Shown here: positions 6,884 to 43,481 of the stretch, one piece after another
How the letters are laid out: every line of letters begins with the position of its first letter
How positions within the stretch are numbered: the stretch's first letter is position 1
IMG/VR virus record: IMGVR_UViG_3300023115_000025
Location: 1-52,851 of that record
DNA length: 52,851 nt
From: a virus
Reading direction: 5' to 3' (one strand)
Notes under the pieces: model-generated
What the model was told of the DNA's origin: nothing
What the model saw: only the letters and a program-made list of their open reading frames with translations
The model's database searches: none
Position numbers and translations under genes: made by a program

Positions 6884-8542
6884 CTATTTTACCATACCGG
6901 CAATTTTGTTTGCTCTAGATTTATTTTTATATTTTTCCATTGCCATGTCATAAACTCTTTTTTTGAGTACCGCAACTTTTACTTTTGGATCTAATTCTTT
7001 TACAACATCTGACATTTCTTTTGCATCTTCTTTGTCTGAATTTTCAACCAAATCACTAAATTCGAAGGATTCTTTCTTTGCGCGTAGTTTTGCAAGATCT
7101 GCGCCGTCAACTTTACCGTTTTTGTTAATGTCAATTTTCTTTTGTTTTGCAGACAATTCCTCATCTTTCATATGATACCCTTTGTCATTGCAATGTTCGC
7201 ATCCTTTACCATCACACTCTGGACAAACAACTTTTTCTTCAGAAACACAATGGGAAGCCATTAGTTTTTGAATATCTTTTCCTGATACATAATCTGGTAG
7301 AATTTTTTCCAATGATTTGCGAATATTCATAGTTTTTGAAACATCTTGCTTAAACTTATCTGCAAAAGATTTCATCACAAAGTTTTTCTGCATTCCTTTA
7401 TATACATTATCAATATCGAGTGCGAGGTCTTTCATTTTACCTTCATTAACGAACTCTTCTTCTACTTCTTCGCTTCTATTGTTAAATCTTACCTTGAACA
7501 TTTTTTCTGTTGCTTTAACACCAATATGATTTGCAACAACATCAACAATCTTTTCTCTTGGTTCTGTGTCTAAATCATTTGTGAAATCTACAAGTTTATC
7601 TGACATACCCTGTCTCATCAACTTGACAGCCTTCATAAAATCTTTCTTGTCAATACCACCAGATTTTTTTGAATATTTCTCTAATTCATCGGCAGCACCA
7701 ATCATTTTCATACCGCCCGTAGCTTCGTTCATGAAAGTCCCAAATCTTTTCATCGTTGTTCCCTCTTTTTTTGGTACACAGTTAGGTACTTCTTTACCGT
7801 TTTTCTTTTTCATACCAATCATTTCGTAACCCTTCCAACAGGGATTGTCATCTTCTTCCACCTTTTTATCTTCGTTGTTGCGGGCTCGGCTTTGATTTTT
7901 CGCCGCGAGCTTGTGCTCATATTCTGCCTGCGTCAATTCTACGATTTCTAATGCTTTCTTTGCGAATGCAATTGCTTTGACTGGACCAGTTGCTTTGTTG
8001 CCAGTCTCTTTTGAGTCCCAGAACATATTCCACACTTTACTACGTGCTGCATCATTTTTAGCTTGTTTCATGTATTTGTTTAAAATATCAGCATCTGCCT
8101 TTGAAAGTTTGTAATCTAACTTATCATCATATCTTAGATTACCACCTACTTTGTAATTTGTGTCGCCCTTATATTTCCATCTTTCTTCATCAAGTTCTAC
8201 TTCTTCCTTATACATATTCAGTTCATATTTCTTATTGTCCATGTTGTACACTTGGATTTGAACTGCCTTTTTACCATCTTTATCAAGTAAACGATAAGAG
8301 TTTGTTTTACCAGATGTTGGTTTGCGAGGCCCTGTAGCGACCTTGTCGTCTATTTCTTTAGAATCAATGTCTATTCCATATTTCTTTTTTGCAAATTCAT
8401 ATGCGTGTTTCATCGCACTAGAAAAGTCTTTATGATACAATTGATAACCTGTAGAAGATTTATTCTCTTCTAAAGTTTTTTCCATAATGGATTTTATCAA
8501 ATCTACAACAGCTTTTGGTTGGTTTTGTAAATCGTTTTTCAT
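6884..8542 (-). CDS. Multidomain phage protein with DnaJ-type zinc motif, EF-hand-like loop and possible internal start
   Basis: 552 residues from ATG 8542 (AGGTG site, late promoter just upstream). A longer reading from 8611 would have a poor start and run into the late promoter. In order: an alpha-rich N terminus; NPCWKGYEMIGM...NGKEVPNCVP (about 233-258), a short Cys module known in marine phage structural proteins; MKRFGTFMNEATGG at about 264, resembling a capsid-targeting peptide and preceded by its own GAGGG site; a helical middle; CPECDGKGCEHCNDKG (about 440-455), a DnaJ-like zinc motif; and DINKNGKVDGADL (about 470-482), an EF-hand/dockerin-like calcium loop. Probably a virion or prohead-internal protein. 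The function is not known. Confidence 0.7.
   Translation of the reverse strand: MKNDLQNQPKAVVDLIKSIMEKTLEENKSSTGYQLYHKDFSSAMKHAYEFAKKKYGIDIDSKEIDDKVATGPRKPTSGKTNSYRLLDKDGKKAVQIQVYNMDNKKYELNMYKEEVELDEERWKYKGDTNYKVGGNLRYDDKLDYKLSKADADILNKYMKQAKNDAARSKVWNMFWDSKETGNKATGPVKAIAFAKKALEIVELTQAEYEHKLAAKNQSRARNNEDKKVEEDDNPCWKGYEMIGMKKKNGKEVPNCVPKKEGTTMKRFGTFMNEATGGMKMIGAADELEKYSKKSGGIDKKDFMKAVKLMRQGMSDKLVDFTNDLDTEPREKIVDVVANHIGVKATEKMFKVRFNNRSEEVEEEFVNEGKMKDLALDIDNVYKGMQKNFVMKSFADKFKQDVSKTMNIRKSLEKILPDYVSGKDIQKLMASHCVSEEKVVCPECDGKGCEHCNDKGYHMKDEELSAKQKKIDINKNGKVDGADLAKLRAKKESFEFSDLVENSDKEDAKEMSDVVKELDPKVKVAVLKKRVYDMAMEKYKNKSRANKIAGMVK
7751..7765 (-). promoter_or_regulatory. Internal ribosome binding site and ATG within the 552-residue gene
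   Basis: On the minus strand GAGGG lies 7 nt before an in-frame ATG at 7753, which would start a 289-residue product beginning MKRFGTFMNEATGG. Both the site quality and the new N terminus are unusual for a chance methionine. Confidence 0.35.
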
Positions 8543-8565
8543 ATTACACCTAATGTTTTTTCTAC

Positions 8566-8573
8566 TATTTATA
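8566..8573 (-). promoter_or_regulatory. Late promoter TATAAATA
   Basis: Exact late octamer on the minus strand in the 32-bp gap between the nucleotidyltransferase-fusion gene and the zinc/EF-hand gene, 23 bp before the latter's ATG. It indicates late expression. Confidence 0.7.
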
Positions 8574-8574
8574 A

Positions 8575-10287
8575 TTATGTTTCTTTGTATTTTTTCAACA
8601 ATTCTTTCCAATCCATACCACCATAAGACTTTGCAATTGTAACTGCATAAGACTTTATAGAGCTCTGATCGCCTTTACTTTTTACGATCTTATCCAAATC
8701 TTTAATTGCACTATTCCAATATTTTTCCTTGGGTGTTAGTAGTTTTTCAGAAACCTTCATATGTGGTGTATCTTTCATATAAGTATCTCTGAGTTTTTTA
8801 GACCCCCATTCACCAGCCCCCGCCTTTGAAACAAATGGTTGATTTTCAGCACCACTAATTGATTCTGTTTGCATTTGACTTAACTGACTCCAGCTTAGTT
8901 TTGCAGCTTCCTTATCTCCAATTTTCATTGCGACTTTTTTTCTTATTGCCATTTTTTGTTTTAGTGACAAATCCATTGGTTCAGTTTTCTTTTTAACAAC
9001 AGTTACTTTCTTTGGATTTGACCTTTTTTGCAACCAAAATTCATCTATCTCTTCCGTAGAATATCCCAATTTCTTTTTCAACATATTCATTGCAGTTGCC
9101 ATTTTTACTGACTTCCACTCATCACCATATCTTTTCTTAAAATCTGCATCGGGTAAATCCTGTGCAATTTTTTCTAACTCTTTTTCTCTGTCTGGATTCA
9201 TTTTAAAATCTTCGTATTTTAATTCTTTACTTGATGTAGAGAAGTTTTTCTTACGCATGATTGTTTTATGTACAACTTCAAACTCACCATTCTTATAGTT
9301 GATAACTACAGGCAGATTTAAGTTAGTTGACATGTCTTTGAGAACTGCTTCGATATCGGGGTTCGCTTTAATTTGAGAACCCTTCTTCTGTTGAACTTTT
9401 TTAAAAAACTTTTGAAGTTCTGCGACTTTAATTTCTGGATCATTTCTTTTATCATTCATTCTATCAGCAAAATGTCTTGTAAATGTAATATCAATATCAT
9501 ATTTTGCAAGCATTCTATCTGCAAATTTTTCCAAATCGTCTATTTGTTTTTGAGATACATCCTCTCCATACATTTTATGATTTAAATCAGTTTTTCTTTC
9601 CATTAAAAACTCAAACAAATCAGCATCATCGATATCTTCCAACAATTCAACCATAGGATCTGTGATAAATTCTTCGTAACTTGGCGACAAGAATATAGAT
9701 AGTTCTTCACTTATTCCCATCGCATCTTTGAGTGCATCGAATATTTTCTTTCCTGTTGTTTTTTCAAATTTTGGCGGCAATCCTTTTTTAAAACTTTCAT
9801 AATCATTTGCAGCGGCCGCAGCTCTCATTTTAGAGGCAGACATTCCGGTAACGCCTTCTGCATCTGGGTCTCTTTCACCGGCAGAATGTATTTCAATGCC
9901 ACCTTTAAAATCATAGAGCCCATGTTTGCCTTCAACACCATTATATTTGTTTAATAGCGTTTTAAATTCTGTAACTCTATCTCCACCTACTACCATTGCG
10001 CATTCTTTATATCCCATTTCATATAAAAGAGTTGCAACATTGATTGCAGTCTTTGCTTTATTATTTTGAATAATATTTTTTGCATAGTTTGGAAACATTT
10101 TTTTCATGAATCTAATTTTAGTTTTTATATCTAACGGATCTTTTTTAGGATTTTGAGAGTGACTTGGAAAGACCATAAAATCCGCATTCTCTTTTTTAGC
10201 GACTGCGGCAACTTTTTCGATTAATTTTTCGTGTCCTGTTGTTGGTGGGTTAAATCTACCAAACGTAAATACTATTTTATCCTTCAT
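8575..10287 (-). CDS. Cytidylyltransferase-like domain fused to a phage-specific C-terminal region
   Basis: 570 residues. The N-terminal 165 or so carry the HIGH-superfamily nucleotidylyltransferase signature: GRFNPPTTGHEKL (residues 10-22), a VVGGDR strand, and GMSASKMR as the second conserved motif (compare ISSTxxR). Such domains transfer NMP to phosphorylated substrates (NMN, FMN, phosphopantetheine, glycerol-phosphate). The substrate is not predictable here. A middle region (about 255-345) with FTRHFADRMNDKRN and VVINYKNGEFEVVHKTIMRK is a conserved block in marine phage proteins, and the C terminus is Lys-rich with SLKQKMAIRKKVAMKIGDKE. It overlaps the preceding gene by 11 bp. Confidence 0.7.
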   Translation of the reverse strand: MKDKIVFTFGRFNPPTTGHEKLIEKVAAVAKKENADFMVFPSHSQNPKKDPLDIKTKIRFMKKMFPNYAKNIIQNNKAKTAINVATLLYEMGYKECAMVVGGDRVTEFKTLLNKYNGVEGKHGLYDFKGGIEIHSAGERDPDAEGVTGMSASKMRAAAAANDYESFKKGLPPKFEKTTGKKIFDALKDAMGISEELSIFLSPSYEEFITDPMVELLEDIDDADLFEFLMERKTDLNHKMYGEDVSQKQIDDLEKFADRMLAKYDIDITFTRHFADRMNDKRNDPEIKVAELQKFFKKVQQKKGSQIKANPDIEAVLKDMSTNLNLPVVINYKNGEFEVVHKTIMRKKNFSTSSKELKYEDFKMNPDREKELEKIAQDLPDADFKKRYGDEWKSVKMATAMNMLKKKLGYSTEEIDEFWLQKRSNPKKVTVVKKKTEPMDLSLKQKMAIRKKVAMKIGDKEAAKLSWSQLSQMQTESISGAENQPFVSKAGAGEWGSKKLRDTYMKDTPHMKVSEKLLTPKEKYWNSAIKDLDKIVKSKGDQSSIKSYAVTIAKSYGGMDWKELLKKYKET

Positions 10288-10696
10288 TGGATCCTCTCGT
10301 TATTTCTAGAACCTTATCCATCTGGGCCCTAATAATAGGTTCTCTGTTCGGCCAAAAAATATACTCTTTATCTTTGTTCTTTAACAAATTGTGCAACAGT
10401 GGCATAATGAGTCTTTCCAGTTTTATAACTTTATCTTCGGTTTGTTCTTTAGAGATGTCAAAATCATTAACCTTATCCTCGTAAAGTTGTTTCGCACCGA
10501 TTAACTCTGACATAACATCTCTTTGCATTTCTATTAATTCAGACAACTTAGCGTCCAAAGATTTAATCTCGGCACTAGTGCCTTCTACAACTCTAGTAAC
10601 TTGTTCTGTATCGGCCCCACTTAGTCTGCCGAGTTCTTCTTCGTCTACGGCAGTGAATCCGAAATCTACATCTTCGTACTTATAATCGTTAGTCAT
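10277..10696 (-). CDS. Conserved coiled-coil hypothetical protein
   Basis: 139 residues from ATG 10696, chosen because GAGGGAACT directly precedes it; an upstream GTG at 10729 lacks a site. It opens with Tyr/Asp-rich YKYEDVDFGFTAVDEEEL, a pattern I associate with small marine-phage proteins. A long amphipathic helix follows (about 40-110, AEIKSLDAKLSELIEMQRD), probably a coiled coil. The C terminus (EYIFWPNREPIIRAQMDKVL) is better conserved in composition. Function unknown. The start of the nucleotidyltransferase gene overlaps its 3' end. Confidence 0.65.
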   Translation of the reverse strand: MTNDYKYEDVDFGFTAVDEEELGRLSGADTEQVTRVVEGTSAEIKSLDAKLSELIEMQRDVMSELIGAKQLYEDKVNDFDISKEQTEDKVIKLERLIMPLLHNLLKNKDKEYIFWPNREPIIRAQMDKVLEITRGSNEG

Positions 10697-10748
10697 AGTT
10701 CCCTCTTTCTTTCCATTCCAAAATGCCACGTTATCATCCTTTCAATTA

Positions 10749-11081
10749 TCAATCCTCGACTTTACTACCGGCTCTCCATTGATAGCATGACCAATATCTA
10801 GCCTTCCATTTGGGGCCAGGATCGTCACAGTTATGTCTGGCACGGAATGAGGCTCTACGATCTGGGTCGTCTCGCTTAATTTCCATATTTGGATCGCCGA
10901 AACCAACTTTAACAATATTACCTTTATCATTTTTTACATAGACATAGAATTTTTTCTTGCCATCATTTGCTCTTTGTGGTTTGTTTAGAGTTACAGATTT
11001 GCCTTGATATTCTGCCTCTACCAATTCCAATTTTTCTCCACAACCGCAATCTTCGTTATAATAATCTCTAAACGTATACAT
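10749..11081 (-). CDS. DUF5872-like small protein with capsid-targeting-like N terminus
   Basis: 110 residues. The start at ATG 11081 shares a base with the preceding stop (TGATG). The N terminus MYTFRDYYNEDCGCGEKLEL fits the M-x-(S/T)-F-x-x-(Y/F)-x-x-E pattern of T4 capsid-targeting peptides. The body carries the block YVKNDKGNIVKVGFGDPNME, then RRASFRARHNCDDPGPKWKA and RYWSCYQW, a compact Cys/His/Arg domain recurring in marine phages as a free protein or fused to head proteins. It may be a virion-internal, nucleic-acid-associated domain. No enzymatic role is claimed. Confidence 0.65.
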   Translation of the reverse strand: MYTFRDYYNEDCGCGEKLELVEAEYQGKSVTLNKPQRANDGKKKFYVYVKNDKGNIVKVGFGDPNMEIKRDDPDRRASFRARHNCDDPGPKWKARYWSCYQWRAGSKVED

Positions 11082-11383
11082 CAATCTTCCTCTTCGTCTT
11101 CGGAATACATCATGTAATCGAATACAGTATTCATGTAGTCGTTACACTTTGTAACTTTTGATTGCAACCATGCATCATATTCCACTTCATCAAATTCTTC
11201 CAAATCTTCTCTAATCACTTCAATAACCTGTTCGGCTTTATCTGCGATAGATTTCAATTCAGTTAGCATCATGTTTGCTTCACTATCTTCTTTTATGAAT
11301 TTAACATCAGTAGAAATTTCTTCATTAGTTCTATTATGTAGATTTTCTACCATGTTTTTCCAAGTGTCAACGTAGTTTTTCAT
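11081..11383 (-). CDS. Acidic helical hypothetical protein
   Basis: 100 residues, strongly acidic at the C terminus (YMMYSEDEEED). Mostly predicted helix: MKNYVDTWKNMVENLHNRTN, then LTELKSIADKAEQVIEVIRE. The start overlaps the SNase gene stop by 4 bp (ATGA), and its stop overlaps the next start, so it lies in a tightly coupled operon. No recognisable domain. Confidence 0.6.
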   Translation of the reverse strand: MKNYVDTWKNMVENLHNRTNEEISTDVKFIKEDSEANMMLTELKSIADKAEQVIEVIREDLEEFDEVEYDAWLQSKVTKCNDYMNTVFDYMMYSEDEEED

Positions 11384-11736
11384 CTCTTACCTCCAAAGTA
11401 TTCTACTGCGTGTCCAGACTCAACCAACATCTTGTTCAAAGATATTTCATCATCAATCATTATTTCTCCAAGAATTCTTCCGTACTTACCAGTTTCGTTA
11501 TCCTTTTTCGTGCGGATGTAAATTTCTTTACCGACTGGTGCTTGACTTTTTGCAAATTCTTTTGCCGCAAGTCCAAGTTCCTTTTCCTTCAAATCTTTTG
11601 TTCTCGACTCTGGAGTATTGATACCGTATAAACGAACTCTTTGCCGGCGCATCCAAACGCCAAATCCAAGATCAATGTCAACATCAACGGTATCCCCGTC
11701 GACCCATCTTAGTACAGTTGCTCTATATTCATACAT
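11380..11736 (-). CDS. Staphylococcal nuclease-like (SNase/TNase) protein
   Basis: 118 residues, a minimal SNase OB-fold. VLRWVDGDTVDVDIDLGFG is the first calcium-binding segment. RLYGINTPESR contains the catalytic Arg and the metal-binding Asn/Thr-Pro-Glu region. LGLAAKEFAKSQ supplies the Glu-region helix, and GKYGRILGEI the second catalytic Arg. No signal peptide is visible, so it would act in the cell or in the virion. It could degrade host nucleic acid or trim DNA ends. It is embedded in the cluster with the ligase-like gene, with a 1-bp gap upstream. Confidence 0.85.
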   Translation of the reverse strand: MYEYRATVLRWVDGDTVDVDIDLGFGVWMRRQRVRLYGINTPESRTKDLKEKELGLAAKEFAKSQAPVGKEIYIRTKKDNETGKYGRILGEIMIDDEISLNKMLVESGHAVEYFGGKR

Positions 11737-11737
11737 A

Positions 11738-12994
11738 TCATTTATCCCAATTTTTTGCAGCAGTAAAGTTGTTGTAACTGAATTCCAATCTATCTACTAA
11801 TTTGACAGCCGTTTTTCCATCAGTATCGATTGCAACATACCCTTCTACATTAGTAACTTTATATCCATTATCTGTTCTTATAAACACTTTTGCTAATTGT
11901 TGAATTTTATTTAATTTATTTACAATGAGACTTTTTGCCTCTACAATATATCCCATAAACTCAATTACAGAATATACAGTTTTATTCATTGATAGTAACT
12001 CTTTTACTATTGAATCTCTTAATTCTTCTTTTTCAGCTCTTGCTTTTTCTGTTTTTAATTTTATAATTACCTTTTCATCAAAATATCTTTTCACATACAT
12101 CGCATAATCTAATTTTTTTACTTTATCTAAAGAAAATTTTTCTCCGTTTTTTATGAAACTATTTAGGTAAGTTTTAAATGACGCTCCAGAAAGACCACCT
12201 TTCATTACTTCAGTCTGCATCTTTTGAAACTTTGACAGTTCATCAGATTTAATTTTTCTAAAACTAGAACCAGCTTTAGATAATTCTTTGGTAACAAGAT
12301 CGGTTTCGGATTTTGTCATTTTTGCATTACCAGACACATCCTTATACGTTGCATCGTCCATCCAAACAGTTGATGGTTTTCTTAATCCACTAATGTTAAC
12401 TCCGAATGATGCACTCATCATTTGTAGATCACTACCAGTATATGTGGTGTGCCAAACAACACCAACTTTTGCGGAATTTATTTTCTTTCCTAAGTCTGTA
12501 TTAGTAGGTACTGCATAGACAAGTGTGTTTGGTTGGAATGTATAATAACTTTCACCATCAATAGTTTTAGTTGATACATCATCTGTAAACATCAAATCAC
12601 CTTGCAACACACCCTTAATTCCAAGTTTTTTAAATTCAGTAAACGCAATAGTAAATTTTGATTTTAAAGTATCACTTAGTTTTTGATCATCTGAAATTTC
12701 TTCAATACTTTTATAAAGCAATGGAGTTGCATTAAATACAGATTTTTTTGCAACAAAAAACTTACCATCACTAGGATCTTCTCCAGCAAAAATGGCAGGA
12801 GCTCCATCCCATTTTACAGTCATATTTACAGACTTAGTTGCACTACCAGCTAACATATTTCTTAGCGAACGCAAAAAGTTAATAGAGGCACGCCCACCAG
12901 AAATTCCATAGTTGACTATTTCATCTTCTATGTGTTCTAGATGAAGGTTTTTCCCACCTTTATCTTCTGTTAAATACGATCCAAAAGTCTGCAT
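11738..12994 (-). CDS. DUF6267-like protein with nucleic-acid-ligase/nucleotidyltransferase motifs
   Basis: 418 residues. VKWDGAPAIFAG (K61-x-D-G) matches motif I of the covalent nucleotidyltransferase/ligase superfamily, where Lys takes the AMP. FFVAKKSVFN, GVLQGDLMF (about 129-136), VGVVWHTTY (about 177) and EGYVAI near the C terminus followed by AVKLVDR occupy positions expected for motifs Ia, III, IIIa, IV and V. I recall this family as DUF6267 in marine phages, without an assigned reaction. It opens MQTFGSYLTEDKGG, a capsid-targeting-like peptide with a potential gp21 cleavage after LTE. Activity, and whether the substrate is DNA or RNA, is inference. Confidence 0.65.
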   Translation of the reverse strand: MQTFGSYLTEDKGGKNLHLEHIEDEIVNYGISGGRASINFLRSLRNMLAGSATKSVNMTVKWDGAPAIFAGEDPSDGKFFVAKKSVFNATPLLYKSIEEISDDQKLSDTLKSKFTIAFTEFKKLGIKGVLQGDLMFTDDVSTKTIDGESYYTFQPNTLVYAVPTNTDLGKKINSAKVGVVWHTTYTGSDLQMMSASFGVNISGLRKPSTVWMDDATYKDVSGNAKMTKSETDLVTKELSKAGSSFRKIKSDELSKFQKMQTEVMKGGLSGASFKTYLNSFIKNGEKFSLDKVKKLDYAMYVKRYFDEKVIIKLKTEKARAEKEELRDSIVKELLSMNKTVYSVIEFMGYIVEAKSLIVNKLNKIQQLAKVFIRTDNGYKVTNVEGYVAIDTDGKTAVKLVDRLEFSYNNFTAAKNWDK

Positions 12995-13005
12995 TACTTT
13001 ACCTT

Positions 13006-13299
13006 TTACTTCATTAGTCCTTTAATCATTTTTAGTGCCTTTTCTGCGTCTGGATGTTTTGGATTAATACTTACTTCATCTCCATTCACAAAATCTGAAA
13101 TATTTGCAGATTTACCTAACGCTTTAATTGCTTTATGAAGTGGATCTTTTGGATCAAACCTTGTTTCAAATCCAGGCTTGCCTCTTAATTCTACCCACTT
13201 GTTATCGCCTTTATTCCACATTTTTAAAACATCCATGTTTTTACCACGAATTAATTTAAACTTTATTCCTTCTTTTATAAACTGACTAAAGCTTTTCAT
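13006..13299 (-). CDS. Small protein with capsid-targeting-like N terminus
   Basis: 97 residues, basic. It begins MKSFSQFIKEGIKFKLIRGK, very close to the T4 internal-protein leader MKTYQEFIAE, with a plausible cleavage after IKE. The remainder (WNKGDNKWVELRGKPGFETR, then NPKHPDAEKALKMIKGLMK) is a small alpha/beta domain I do not recognise. Adjacent to the ligase-like gene. A virion-internal role is inferred from the leader only. Confidence 0.55.
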   Translation of the reverse strand: MKSFSQFIKEGIKFKLIRGKNMDVLKMWNKGDNKWVELRGKPGFETRFDPKDPLHKAIKALGKSANISDFVNGDEVSINPKHPDAEKALKMIKGLMK

Positions 13300-14592
13300 T
13301 TACTCTACCTTTGCATATACGCCACTAAGAGATGATTGTGAAGAGGCATAAGAAATAATTTCTGTCGTTACATCATTTGGATTTTTATAAGAGTTTATAA
13401 CACTACAAATTTCCGCACCCAAATATTTACTGTAAAACCATTGTACTCCAGAATCTACTGTTTTTTTACTTACTTCAGAAACAAATTTTTCATAATCCAT
13501 ACGCTCGTTCGTCAATTCATTAAAGTATTTATATAGTTTTTCTAAGTGTTTTTTGTCCACTTTTACTGTGTTTGGTGTCGTGCAGGTTTCCCCTGTAACT
13601 CTTTTCAATATATTTTGTAAAACTCCGCCACCAACTTTACCTTGGTTTGCAAATTGTCCTTTTATTTCGCCCTGCCATGATGATGGAACGGGACCAAAAG
13701 TTCTCATTTGTATTTTACCACCTTCATATTCAATGTACCAATCTTTGGAGCTAAAAAATGTTTTTCCAAATGTATATCCTTTATATGCATAAGTCTTTTT
13801 AACGGCCCCTGTTAAATTTTTAACGGAATACCTACCAGTTGCACCCACAACTTTTTTTAGTGACACACCCATTATTCTTTTTTCATTAAACATTTTTTCA
13901 ATATAATCATTCAACTGAACATAATTTTTAAATTGTGTCCAATCTGGAGACAATCCATTTTCAACAATCCATATGTCGGCAGGACTCCATTTATTGATGT
14001 TTGAGAATACATTTTCTTTTTTATTGATAACTTTCCATTGCGTTTCTAATGCTGTTACCCACGAACTTCCTCTATGATATGTGTAGTTTTTTGTTGGGTT
14101 TATTTTACCTTTAAGTAACTTTGCTCCAGTAATAGAAGATTTAACCCAATCTTCTGACAATTCTTTTCTGATTTCTTCCAGTTTTACATCACACGCACAA
14201 TTAGAAAATCCATCTGACAAATCTTGTGCGGTAAAATCTGTTGATTTATAATCCCTATGTGCTGCAAGGTAGAGGCATTGAGCAGACTCACCAATTGCAG
14301 TTGCTCTTGCGCCAGCTCCCGATCCACCACCTAATGGTTTTACAACCACTCTATATAATTCGTCAAAGTAACTAAACTCTATAACTGGTATAGAGCTCGA
14401 TTCACTTTGAATCATTTTTTCTTCGAAACTGATACTTTGAGATTTTAAAGACTTTATTATTTGGTCGTATGTAGAAGTTCTTTTATTAGAAGGGACTCTA
14501 AGATGATACTTTTTTATTGTCTTAGTACTCTTGTCTAAGACAGAATTGTGATTTTGAATTTTGGACAGTTTAAGTACCAATTCTTTAGACAT
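13300..14592 (-). CDS. Large conserved hypothetical protein
   Basis: 430 residues with no domain I can name. Notable blocks: VVVKPLGGGSGAGARATAIG then ESAQCLYLAAHRDY (about 107-140), WSPADIWIVENGL (about 213), and SSWQGEIKGQFANQGKVGGG (about 307). The VKP...GGSGAGAxAT and WxPADIW combinations recall nuclease-like or replication-associated families, but catalytic residues cannot be assigned. First gene of the 14.6-6.4 kb block, preceded by a late-like octamer and an ACAGGA ribosome site. The ends abut the 97-residue gene. Confidence 0.6.
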   Translation of the reverse strand: MSKELVLKLSKIQNHNSVLDKSTKTIKKYHLRVPSNKRTSTYDQIIKSLKSQSISFEEKMIQSESSSIPVIEFSYFDELYRVVVKPLGGGSGAGARATAIGESAQCLYLAAHRDYKSTDFTAQDLSDGFSNCACDVKLEEIRKELSEDWVKSSITGAKLLKGKINPTKNYTYHRGSSWVTALETQWKVINKKENVFSNINKWSPADIWIVENGLSPDWTQFKNYVQLNDYIEKMFNEKRIMGVSLKKVVGATGRYSVKNLTGAVKKTYAYKGYTFGKTFFSSKDWYIEYEGGKIQMRTFGPVPSSWQGEIKGQFANQGKVGGGVLQNILKRVTGETCTTPNTVKVDKKHLEKLYKYFNELTNERMDYEKFVSEVSKKTVDSGVQWFYSKYLGAEICSVINSYKNPNDVTTEIISYASSQSSLSGVYAKVE

Positions 14593-40040: not shown

Positions 40041-40069
40041 AAAGTATATTGTTATTGTTATTATACTTT
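40041..40069 (-). repeat. Inverted repeat at the gp23 stop
   Basis: AAAGTATA and TATACTTT form an 8-bp perfect stem around a 13-nt loop. The gp23 TAA codon lies in the stem. It may stabilise the gp23 mRNA 3' end together with the terminator. Confidence 0.45.
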
Positions 40070-41425
40070 GAGCAGATTGTCCACGCGGAACATTCTGTAG
40101 TATTGGTTTGCGCGGTCAGCGATTGCACCACTGTTTGCACTACCACCACCAGCAAATGGATTTGCAACAATACCGTAACGTGTTTTAAATCCGATTTTTG
40201 GTTGGAAGGTATCTGGTCCAACTGCACGAACCATTTGTAGTGGAACGTATGGGCAATAGAACAGACCTGCGTCATATGGTGAAGTACCTTTATATCCAAC
40301 ACATGCGAGTTCATATGAACCAGCAGCGTCAAAATATGGGTCAATGTAAACGCGCATCTTACCGTTGAGGATACCAGCAAAAGTTTGTCCGGTGTCATCT
40401 ACTGAGATACCATTGTTTACTGCAAGAGCTTGGTTGTAGTCAAGTACACCGGCCATTGAGAGAGCTGAAGCGACATCTGAAGAACAGATGAGCATGTTAC
40501 CCTTACCACGGCGAGTTGCTTTTGCAATTGCGTTTGCTTCGCGTTCGATTTGGAAAAGAAGACCTTTCCATTTCTCTGCACTCCAGCGTCCGTCTGCATC
40601 AGCACCCAAGTCAAAGACACCTGGCTTAACAGTTCCAGCTGCACCAATAACTGCACTTGAGTATACTGTGCGGATAACTTCGCGGTTGATTTCTGCCATA
40701 ATCTCAGTTGAGAGAATGTTAGAAAGTTCAGACTCTGCATCCAGTCCATGAACTGCTTTCAAGTCTTGTGCGAGTTCCATTGTGTATTCTGCTTTGAGAG
40801 CGCGTGACTTTGCGGCCACAGTAATTCTCTCAATTGAGAATGCCATTTGGTTGAAGTGTCCACTCGTACCCATGTTGTTTGCGTTACCGTCACCGAGTCT
40901 TTCAGCTTCGGCTGTAGTACCACCAACACCAGATGAGTGTGTAGCATTAGTCACATCAACAGGTGTACCATTTGCAAATACCATACCTGCGAATGGATCC
41001 GTAGATGCGTGAGTACCAGTACCTGAGAAATCAGAGTCTGCTTCGTTATAGAATGCCTCTGAACCAGTTTGTGATTCGTAACGCGAACGCATTGCGAAAA
41101 TCAAACCAGTTGGTCCTGACATTGGTTGAACACCGAGCAGATCGTATGCCATCAGATTTGGCATTGACCGGCGAACCAAAGAAATAAGGACTGGGTCCAT
41201 ACCTTTGATGTTACCTTCTCCAGCCGTTGGTGACATTCCGGCACCAACAATGTTTACTTCGTTAAGCATTGCCGCTTCTTCTGCAGCTGCCTTTTCTTGG
41301 TTTTCTAGGAGAATTGCAGTAACCGCCTTTTTGTAAGTATCCTTAATCTCTGGAAGATCAGGATGCTCAATGATCGGCTTCCACTTCTCCTGAAGTTTGT
41401 CTGACAAATGCATTTCTGTATACAT
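40061..41425 (-). CDS. 23: Major capsid protein gp23
   Basis: 454 residues (T4: 521 before cleavage). Diagnostic blocks: NIVGAGMSPTAGEGNIKGMD, VLISLVRRSMPNLMAYDLLG, VQPMSGPTGLIFAMRSRYE, QMAFSIERITVAAKSRALKA, YTMELAQDLKAVHGLDAESE, and GFKTRYGIVANPFA. The N-terminal 56 residues end in MLNE, which fits the (L/I)-x-E site of prohead protease gp21, so a propeptide of about 56 residues is expected. Forms the HK97-fold capsid lattice. Late promoter and terminator bracket the gene. Confidence 0.97.
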   Translation of the reverse strand: MYTEMHLSDKLQEKWKPIIEHPDLPEIKDTYKKAVTAILLENQEKAAAEEAAMLNEVNIVGAGMSPTAGEGNIKGMDPVLISLVRRSMPNLMAYDLLGVQPMSGPTGLIFAMRSRYESQTGSEAFYNEADSDFSGTGTHASTDPFAGMVFANGTPVDVTNATHSSGVGGTTAEAERLGDGNANNMGTSGHFNQMAFSIERITVAAKSRALKAEYTMELAQDLKAVHGLDAESELSNILSTEIMAEINREVIRTVYSSAVIGAAGTVKPGVFDLGADADGRWSAEKWKGLLFQIEREANAIAKATRRGKGNMLICSSDVASALSMAGVLDYNQALAVNNGISVDDTGQTFAGILNGKMRVYIDPYFDAAGSYELACVGYKGTSPYDAGLFYCPYVPLQMVRAVGPDTFQPKIGFKTRYGIVANPFAGGGSANSGAIADRANQYYRMFRVDNLLKV

Positions 41426-41485: not shown

Positions 41486-42520
41486 TCAATTTTTAGCAAA
41501 TCTTGACAAAACGGCAGCATAGGCATCCATATTTGTGTATTTACTTGGTTGTTTGGAAGCTTCCTCTTGAATTACAACAGGAGAATCTTCTAGCGCAGTT
41601 TCTGCTTCTGTCTCATCAGAAATCTCAGTAGTTACTTCAACTTCGTCTGAAGGAAAATAGTTTTCCTTGAGCACTTTTAGTTTTTCACTAAAGTCCTCTG
41701 TAGAAACAAAATCAATACCCTCACTAAGTGAACGAAGTTTTTCTGATTGCGTCAATGTCAAACCTTCGGTGATGTCACGAACTGCAATTTCTTTTTGTAG
41801 CAATTCAACTTCTTTTGAAAGTTCAACTGACTTTTTGATTTCGTCATTCAATTTAGTTTCGGTTTCTTCTAGATTTGAAACTGACTCGGTATAGAGGTCT
41901 AGTTTCTCTTCTGGAATATCTACATAATTTTCAACAAATACTGCCTTGAGACCTTTTTGGAAATTTTCCATGATTTCCAATTTCAATCCGTTTTCAACAG
42001 CAAGTTTGTTTTCTTCTAACCATTCTTTTGCAATATAGGTTAGATACTCATCTACTTTTTCAGAAATTTCGGTACGAATTTCTACCAAATTTTCTTCGAG
42101 AGTTTCTTTGTATTCTTCTTCTAGTTTTTCAACTTCTTCATTAATTTTTTCAAGTACTGCGGCTTCAAAGATAGTTTGAGCTTTCTCTTTAAATTCTTCC
42201 GATAGATCTTGTCCAGAGAGCATTGCATCGATATGCTCTTTTACATCAATGTCTTCTTTGGCCACCTTTTTCTTTGAGGCCATTTTATTACCATATGATG
42301 CATTCATTGGTTTCTTTTCTTTATCTTCTTCATCGTCTTCTTCCTCATCATCCTCGCGATCATCTTCGACGATCTCTTTGGTTTCAGAAGTTTCCTCGAC
42401 AATATCAGTTTCTGCTGACTCTTCAGATTCAACAACTGTTTCTTCTACAGTTACTTCTTCTTCAACAACAGATTCTTCAACATTTTCATTTTCGTTGATT
42501 TCTAATTCTTTATCTGCCAT
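41486..42520 (-). CDS. 22: Prohead scaffold protein gp22
   Basis: 344 residues (T4: 269). Highly charged and helical: the first 75 residues are Glu/Val/Asp-rich (VEESVVEEEVTVEETVVESE), then KEKKPMNASYGNKMASKKK, and long coiled coil (FEAAVLEKINEEVEKLEEEY). It shares composition and position (21-22-23) with marine T4-like scaffolds, which are degraded by gp21 in the prohead. It has its own late promoter. Confidence 0.85.
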   Translation of the reverse strand: MADKELEINENENVEESVVEEEVTVEETVVESEESAETDIVEETSETKEIVEDDREDDEEEDDEEDKEKKPMNASYGNKMASKKKVAKEDIDVKEHIDAMLSGQDLSEEFKEKAQTIFEAAVLEKINEEVEKLEEEYKETLEENLVEIRTEISEKVDEYLTYIAKEWLEENKLAVENGLKLEIMENFQKGLKAVFVENYVDIPEEKLDLYTESVSNLEETETKLNDEIKKSVELSKEVELLQKEIAVRDITEGLTLTQSEKLRSLSEGIDFVSTEDFSEKLKVLKENYFPSDEVEVTTEISDETEAETALEDSPVVIQEEASKQPSKYTNMDAYAAVLSRFAKN

Positions 42521-42576: not shown

Positions 42577-43218
42577 TCACAAACTCGACAAAAAGTTTTT
42601 GAATAAGTTAATCTTTGTTTCCTCAAGTTGAGACTTTCTCGCTTCTTTCAATTCCTGTGAATAGGAGTCGATAGTAGCTTCTTTAATGATACCATTGTCC
42701 CAAATCCACTCTTTACCTTCCATTATACCATTAACAAATGCGTCCGGCGCAGATGGATCTGCAACGATATCAGCAGCTGTTGCAAGATAAAAATCATTCT
42801 GTACAACATTAGCGCCACCTGACGATTTAACACTACCCATGCCTCTTGATGAAACACCAAGCTGTGCCCCTTCTTTGATAAGATTTTTTACAATTGCACC
42901 ATAAGGTGTTTCCGTCATAATTTTAGCCTTACCAATGAAATTCTTATCTTCCAGTCTCAACTCTTTAATCATATGCGAGACTCTTTCTAAATTAATAGTA
43001 GGACCGTCTGGATGTCCTAACTCACCAAACGCTCTGTTTTTATTTACATAGTTTTCCGTATATCTATTTACTTCATTCATTAAAACATCAGTAGGATAAA
43101 TTCTACCATTTCTGTTTTTAACATCAGACTGTAAGAATACCCCTTCGATATACAAATCATTGCCAGATTTAGACTCGACAATATTGATGTCTTCTATAAC
43201 TTCGGTTATGAGTTTCAT
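42577..43218 (-). CDS. 21: Prohead core protease gp21
   Basis: 213 residues (T4: 212). Serine protease of the U9/prohead family: FLQSDVKNRNGRIYP at the N terminus, FGELGHPDGPTINLERVSH with the catalytic His, and LGVSSRGMGSVKS with the catalytic Ser. It cleaves (L/I)-x-E sites in head proteins at maturation, which makes the LNE in gp23 and the x-x-E leaders of several small proteins here of interest. Starts within the previous stop (ATGA). Confidence 0.95.
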   Translation of the reverse strand: MKLITEVIEDINIVESKSGNDLYIEGVFLQSDVKNRNGRIYPTDVLMNEVNRYTENYVNKNRAFGELGHPDGPTINLERVSHMIKELRLEDKNFIGKAKIMTETPYGAIVKNLIKEGAQLGVSSRGMGSVKSSGGANVVQNDFYLATAADIVADPSAPDAFVNGIMEGKEWIWDNGIIKEATIDSYSQELKEARKSQLEETKINLFKNFLSSL

Positions 43219-43481
43219 AGTCCTGTCCTTTTCATATTTGATCTATTTCTTTTCATATTTGAAATAGCAACTTTACCTCTTCTCTTGCGAGCAGATTTCT
43301 TATTTCTAATACTCATCTTAATAGCATCACTGGCACCAATTTTAATTTCGCGTTTGTTTTTGACATAATATCCCGGCCTATCCGAAACGTATTTAATTTT
43401 TCTTTTACCCTGACGAACAACAACTTTTCTTTTTATTGCTTCGTCTAGATCGTCTGCAAGATACTCCGAAAAACTTAACAT
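43215..43481 (-). CDS. Small basic prohead-core candidate (gp68 position)
   Basis: 88 residues, very Lys/Arg-rich (IRNKKSARKRRGKVAISNMK, then RNRSNMKRTGL). It begins MLSFSEYLADDLDEAIKRK, resembling a capsid-targeting leader with possible gp21 cleavage after LDE. Placement 67-68-21 as in T4 suggests a gp68-like core component; marine phages carry similar KxSxxxxxxRRxARKRK proteins here. Sequence similarity to T4 gp68 itself was not seen. Confidence 0.6.
   Translation of the reverse strand: MLSFSEYLADDLDEAIKRKVVVRQGKRKIKYVSDRPGYYVKNKREIKIGASDAIKMSIRNKKSARKRRGKVAISNMKRNRSNMKRTGL

Follow-up and report, generated by a model that had tools for sequence, protein, structure and literature searches.

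T4-type capsid-targeting leaders as candidate packaging signals for enzymes of a marine T4-like phage

This report concerns a short N-terminal leader found on several proteins of a T4-like marine phage, in a virus record fragment of 52,851 bases (IMG/VR record IMGVR_UViG_3300023115_000025; the whole of this stretch is called the window below). It is likely that these leaders are capsid-targeting sequences (CTS) of the T4 type, cut by the prohead protease gp21, and that the tag-free enzymes are packaged and ejected with the DNA; as in T4, such enzymes would then probably enter the host cell alongside the phage DNA. For the window's own DUF6267 enzyme, packaging is predicted from its sequence. 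The signal itself is known from T4; new, in the literature searched, are its occurrence on several enzymes of marine T4-like phages and its link to published virion protein lists, and a search covering open-licence papers found no CTS described for such phages. Enzymes, cytidyltransferases and kinases among them, recur in cyanophage virion proteomes; in the accessible text of these papers the authors leave undecided whether such enzymes are packaged or contaminants. A T4-type tag would provide a concrete packaging mechanism, sequence alone may predict the enzymes that marine T4-like phages inject, and at the peptide level mature N termini would be expected to begin after the leader glutamate.

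The five leader sequences listed by the first-pass annotation, which had described a set of small proteins with capsid-targeting-like N termini including a ligase-like enzyme, are all present where it placed them. The description as small holds for most members, but one protein has 418 amino acids (aa) and the fifth sequence lies inside a protein of 552 aa. The genes concerned and their neighbours in the block are as follows.

11738–12994, minus strand: DUF6267 protein, probably ligase-like, 418 aa; leader MQTFGSYLTE at 12994–12965
13006–13299, minus strand: 97-aa protein, function unassigned; leader MKSFSQFIKE at 13299–13270
10749–11081, minus strand: 110-aa protein, small domain; leader MYTFRDYYNE at 11081–11052
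43215–43481, minus strand: 88-aa lysine/arginine-rich protein, MLSFSEYLADDLDE from 43481; leader MLSFSEYLAD at 43481–43452
6884–8542, minus strand: 552-aa shuffled-module protein; internal MKRFGTFMNE at 7753–7724
8575–10287, minus strand: cytidyltransferase/NMNAT-like protein, 570 aa, leaderless here; PF01467, phrog_3041
13300–14592, minus strand: 430-aa protein of the phrog_1462 family, leaderless here
11380–11736, minus strand: SNase-like nuclease of the same block, without leader; PF00565, E=6e-13

In T4, the first 10 residues of the internal protein IPIII are enough for packaging; mutagenesis found residues 4 and 7 to matter most for targeting and residues 8 and 10 for processing, and a leader with Asp10 allowed targeting while processing was blocked (T4 review, PMC9026906). 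When DUF6267 orthologs were aligned on their conserved body (KNLHLEH), independently of the leader pattern, a set of 41 distinct leaders of equal length had an entropy of 0.17 bits at position 4 (F in 40/41), 0.62 bits at position 8 (L or I in 40/41) and 0.17 bits at position 10 (E in 40/41), with exclusively F, Y, L, I or H at position 7 and 2.3–2.9 bits at positions 2, 3, 5, 6 and 9. The constrained positions (4, 7, 8 and 10) are thus the same ones that mutagenesis found functional in T4. Most leaders keep the (L/I)-x-E processing residues, the exceptions being MYTFRDYYNE, with Y at position 8, and MLSFSEYLAD, with D rather than E at position 10. The latter is followed by an LDE|A site at residue 14, and D10 together with this displaced site would fit targeting with a shifted cut. 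Among members of the 97-aa family, an 11-row alignment shows the leader to be invariant only at M1 and E10, with conserved sequence after E10; some members have L at position 4.

The leaders share with those of T4 IPI, IPII and IPIII a length of about 10 residues, an aromatic residue at position 4, a hydrophobic one at 7, L/I at 8 and E at 10, as well as the placing of a conserved tag ahead of variable, unrelated bodies in a genome that also encodes gp21 and a scaffold. They differ in their cargo: the T4 internal protein bodies are small, IPI being an anti-restriction inhibitor, whereas the cargo here and in relatives includes enzymes (ligase-like, cytidyltransferase, nucleotidase, S-adenosylmethionine (SAM) lyase and kinase). 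The marine lineage also has shortened leader variants and leaders at fusion junctions, unlike T4. The ejection proteins of phiKZ and SPN3US processed by the prohead protease are comparable in that they are cut after Glu in a short motif and are virion proteins delivered to the host, but their propeptides are mostly longer, and the SPN3US motif is A-x-E. As proposed here, the tagged proteins would be made late in infection, F4 and F/Y/L7 of the leader would bind the prohead core (scaffold), gp21 would cut after E10 at (L/I)-x-E so that the tag leaves, and the enzyme would remain beside the DNA inside the head and, as in T4, be ejected with it at infection. In the marine T4-like lineage, the tag would then serve as a movable address label on unrelated cargo. 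In T4, gp23 (AF158101 104945–106510, in L106) contains AFGSFLTE|AEIGG, near the window's MQTFGSYLTE|D; judged from sequence, the internal-protein tag may be derived from, or a mimic of, the capsid propeptide.

A start-anchored pattern (aromatic at 4, hydrophobic at 7 and 8, acidic at 10) matched 4 of 63 called genes in the window, as against 0.16 expected with residue-shuffled N termini and a maximum of 2 matches in 2000 shuffles; among internal methionines 2/312 matched, the MKRF site being one. The scan also picked up T4 IPII and IPIII (MKTYQEFIAEA), which served as positive controls. In a wider survey of 280 sequences, with proteins grouped in 1133 clusters, the tag was found in 28 clusters versus 4.4 with shuffled N termini (maximum 8 in 100 shuffles), and a single representative per cluster gave 19 matches versus 1.35 (maximum 6 in 500 shuffles). 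Internal methionines of the survey matched in 4 of 4107 cases, 2 of them at apparent fusion junctions. Tagged cargo in relatives includes an NT5C nucleotidase (PF06941), a SAM lyase (PF23780), a protein weakly matching a kinase, cytidyltransferases, DUF6267 proteins and a HAD phosphatase-like protein that also matches a polynucleotide-kinase PHROG. The T4 hypothetical protein 61.1 (L084:18966–19130, minus strand) starts with the CTS-like MKTFKEFIKED.

The leader lies outside the fold that it precedes. The Pfam match of the DUF6267 protein spans residues 16–414 and so starts past the leader, and in its AlphaFold model (35 relatives) the confidence score pLDDT averages 84.5 overall and 46 over residues 1–10, with residues 1–5 and 9–14 below 50, making the leader the least confident part. 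The 97-aa protein shows a weaker contrast (54 over residues 1–10 versus 70.9 overall). The first-pass annotation had held that conservation of the leader only within a folded domain would speak against packaging; the low pLDDT, clades without a leader and differing linkers show otherwise. DUF6267 clades include leaderless forms (MSKNTHLEHLED), a stub (MELLNEDKNTHLEH) and a leader with another linker (MYNFKTFLSEAHASNEDKLTHLEH). The swapping between downstream domains that it had envisaged is also seen, with unrelated domains tagged and orthologs both with and without the tag. Among 75 distinct N termini of cytidyltransferase relatives, most have the leader, at a distance of about 15 to 118 residues from the FGRFNPP motif. 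The 110-aa domain carries a leader in the window and in L311, lacks it in non-T4-like phages, where matches begin at residue 16–33, and also forms the C-terminal module of leader-bearing cytidyltransferases. Leaderless in the window, phrog_1462 begins with MINFKTYISEA in L287, and families both tagged and untagged comprise phrog_1462, HAD/NT5C, the cytidyltransferases and the 110-aa domain. A division of labour in which DUF6267 and cytidyltransferase carry one tag per pair was unsupported: counted as distinct combinations, both were tagged in 38, only the cytidyltransferase in 37, neither in 25 and only DUF6267 in 10.

Published virion proteomes of relatives contain several tagged proteins. 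In S-CREM2, with 52 virion proteins by mass spectrometry (MS) (PMC10665884, Table 3), a genome-wide scan with the pattern gave 5 N-terminal matches, 4 of which are on the virion list (Fisher p=0.012): the SAM hydrolase ORF6 (MKDFDSFLEE), the kinase ORF14 (VKRFDAFLTE, annotated with a GTG start), the hypothetical protein ORF136 (MQTFSMFFSE) and the cytidylyltransferase ORF154 (MKNFSSFLTE). By published MS, tagged cytidyltransferases are virion proteins of S-SM1 (T4-GC190, MKKFSAFLNE; among the proteins named in the main text of that paper), S-SZBM1 (MRFRQFIIE) and S-SCSM1 (MKSFLQFLKE); S-SM2 was used solely for its cytidyltransferase N terminus. Homologs of further proteins of the window's block are on these lists as well. 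The MS virion protein SSCSM1_90 (phrog_1462) is 31% identical over 417 aa to the 13300–14592 protein, and SSZBM1_139 (also written S-SZBM1_139) shares the CWKGY module with the 6884–8542 protein. The likeness to the virions of S-SM1, S-CREM2, S-SZBM1 and S-SCSM1, whose cytidyltransferase/NMNAT and kinase were seen by MS, thus covers cytidyltransferase, phrog_1462 and CWKGY-module proteins; unlike in those phages, the window's cytidyltransferase is untagged and its DUF6267 neighbour tagged. Neither S-SZBM1 nor S-CREM2 has its leaderless DUF6267 protein (gene 141 and 58869–59777, respectively) on its virion list. The cyanophage virion papers, in their accessible text, name no packaging signal.

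The window encodes the head proteins on which the proposed pathway would depend, with profile matches to gp20, gp21, gp22 and gp23.

42577–43218, minus strand: gp21-type prohead protease; PF03420 Peptidase_S77, E=5.5e-35
41486–42520, minus strand: gp22-type scaffold, the expected leader-binding partner; PF25623, E=5.2e-67
40061–41425, minus strand: major capsid protein gp23; PF07068, E=1.8e-142; LNE at 54–56
8566–8573, minus strand: TATAAATA box, upstream of ATG 8542
13526–13533, minus strand: TATAAATA box, within the 13300–14592 gene

The gp21 blocks GELGHP, SSRGMGS and ATAADIVADPSAP are all intact, and the LNE reported earlier at gp23 residue 56 does occupy residues 54–56. The late-promoter-like box TATAAATA occurs 12 times in the window, all on the minus (coding) strand, versus 6.7 expected on both strands. 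Most of the boxes precede head and tail genes, so that the late-type signals earlier ascribed to the leader block are borne out mainly for the head and tail genes; the block itself has two, one of them inside a gene. In a sequence scan, the box was near 19 of 168 leader genes versus 112 of 1885 others (p=0.008).

The tagged DUF6267 protein matches PF19782 (also phrog_455) along its full length behind the leader (E=1.1e-98, 331.5 bits against a curated cut-off of 27), and among annotated phages its best relatives belong to Methylophilales phage Melnitz (assigned to Kyanoviridae), whose DUF6267 carries the leader LINFSKYITE|D. The Pfam match excludes the leader, and some members of the family are leaderless or fused to a cytidyltransferase. 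The protein carries KWDG (residue 61), EGYV (384) and KLVDR (398), with K61, D63, G64, E384, G385 and K398 invariant in 35 aligned sequences; K61-x-D-G fits motif I of the nucleotidyltransferases, E384-G motif IV and K398 motif V. A fold search of the model against the PDB gave noise and no credible match, a profile search against solved structures gave no match, and hhalign to T4 Rnl2 and Rnl1 was not significant (0.3% and 4.5%). In BFVD the first match outside the family was an RNA ligase (E=2.3e-3, prob 0.98, with a low TM-score of 0.25), and several more RNA ligases, all of low TM-score, were among the top matches. The earlier assignment as a ligase-like enzyme therefore holds as far as the invariant motifs go, while the PDB and hhalign comparisons are insignificant; taken with the weak fold evidence, a ligase-like function is probable. 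A search of open-licence literature found no publication dedicated to DUF6267.

Several points weigh against the packaging interpretation. The pattern was composed after the leaders of the window and of T4 were known; S-CREM2 was scanned with the unchanged expression, although the N termini of its block had been inspected shortly beforehand; and the match in S-SZBM1 is owed to a short leader variant added afterwards. The leader-bearing proteins SSCSM1_30 and SSZBM1_191 (about 106 aa) are not on the legible portions of the virion lists, 4 of 6 leader families were detected among phages with MS data, and the DUF6267 proteins of phages with a legible list are all leaderless. Detection in virions by caesium chloride purification and MS leaves contamination possible, as stated by the cyanophage proteome authors in the accessible text. 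Finally, the Pelagibacter isolate HTVC008M gave no strict leader match despite having DUF6267, cytidyltransferase and gp21 homologs. Its leaders (L082, L096–L103) are degenerate, as in MYNDLLVED and MKTLKELLRKK, and the signal may have been lost or altered in this clade. The pattern's late composition, together with the frequency of M-K at gene starts, could be taken to mean that it reflects chance or an N-terminal codon or composition bias (AT-rich ATG-AAA starts); the probability of this is close to negligible, since the composition-keeping shuffles fall far below the counts in the window and among cluster representatives, and positions 4, 7, 8 and 10 are constrained while position 2 is free. 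It is also very unlikely that F-x-x-F-L-x-E is a small helix serving the folded protein as an oligomer contact, for stability or in binding a common cellular partner. AlphaFold does place a short helix at residues 4–7 of the DUF6267 protein and 4–10 of the 97-aa protein, but the same pattern heads unrelated folds, is missing from some orthologs, is joined to the cytidyltransferase domain by a linker of such variable length, is the part of lowest pLDDT in either model and belongs to proteins concentrated in a published virion list.

Within a capsid-targeting interpretation, the leaders might target the core with some remaining uncut, so that the enzymes would be tethered or act in head assembly and would not be delivered. 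D10 of MLSFSEYLAD, permissive for targeting and blocking for processing in T4 (PMC9026906), and Y8 of MYTFRDYYNE are in keeping with this, but the retention of (L/I)-x-E in most leaders, and of L-x-E in variants one residue shorter (MMKFSQLNE and others), as a cut site would require, makes it distinctly unlikely. An addition to the preferred reading of cleavage and delivery, possible though on balance doubtful, is that gp21 also cuts [LIVMF]xE sites at module junctions, so that the 8542–6884 protein would be a packaged polyprotein chopped into modules. In its favour, [LIVMF]xE is found in 0.40 of break-point windows versus 0.21 at random, conserved module starts show FMNE|ATGG beside LAE|ATGG and LDE|GKMK beside VNE|GKMK, L014, L015 and L285 have fusion-junction leaders, and two proteins related through their modules, SSZBM1_139 and SSCSM1_92, were detected in virions. 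The control motifs E.[LIVMF], [LIVMF]..E and [DEK].E are, however, also raised 1.4–1.7 fold at break points, so acidic linkers may account for part of the excess, and the alignment ends are fuzzy. A broader reading, which we regard as rather unlikely, is that a prepackaged kit for the repair of nucleic acids and nucleotides is delivered by marine T4-like phages at infection, with multi-module members cut by gp21 in the head. Such a kit would consist of tagged DUF6267 plus, in some relatives, tagged phosphatases and cytidyltransferases, and would possibly counter immediate host nucleases. The phosphatases in question are that of L004 (VKSFNTFLVEASGK..., matching the polynucleotide-kinase family phrog_415) and the NT5C nucleotidase of L006. 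The tagged HAD protein at L004:12206–12811 (polynucleotide-kinase PHROG, E=1.9e-7) lies directly after the gene for the 97-aa leader protein and near the DUF6267 gene.

The capsid-targeting proposal as a whole is supported by the fold, the swapping of the leader and the virion-detected relatives; the part that does not stand is the internal MKRFGTFMNE as a working N-terminal leader, a site for which a module junction is the better reading. The open reading frame caller starts this gene at TTG 8611, a start that is probably wrong; ATG 8542 is favoured because TATAAATA at 8573–8566 directly precedes it. With that start, MKRFGTFMNE|ATGG begins at residue 264 and falls where the CWKGY module gives way to the following one, and the relative in L004 has ELAE|ATGG at the equivalent junction. 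Shuffled modules (CWKGY, YHK, EF-hand-like, zinc-knuckle-like and FTRHF) occur in the window's 6884–8542 and 8575–10287 genes and in L004, L006, L008, L014 and L015; they recombine between adjacent genes, and some fusion junctions carry leaders.

As for the remaining proteins of the window, the 88-aa protein at 43481 occupies the position of T4 gene 68 and had no family match in Pfam or PHROG, and the 97-aa protein was unmatched in the annotated phage collection. Residues 22–102 of the 110-aa protein match phrog_7595 (E=8e-14), while the cytidyltransferase matches PF01467 (E=1.7e-5, 25.5 bits, cut-off 21) and phrog_3041 (E=2.5e-62).

Copies of the gp23 N-terminal arm (for example GGFTGSSAAEGPTAGYDPLM) were seen in small non-capsid proteins, two of which are MS-detected virion proteins; the carriers are L315:9122–9307 (SSCSM1_97), L085:12343–13236 (S-CREM2 gp160) and L087:47806–48354 (S-SM1 GC426). 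On sequence grounds, these copies may be a second mimic acting in packaging or assembly, separate from the leader. Another virion protein, the 69-aa SSCSM1_93 (L315:7627–7836), has a leader-like RTFKEFLEYIE at its C terminus.

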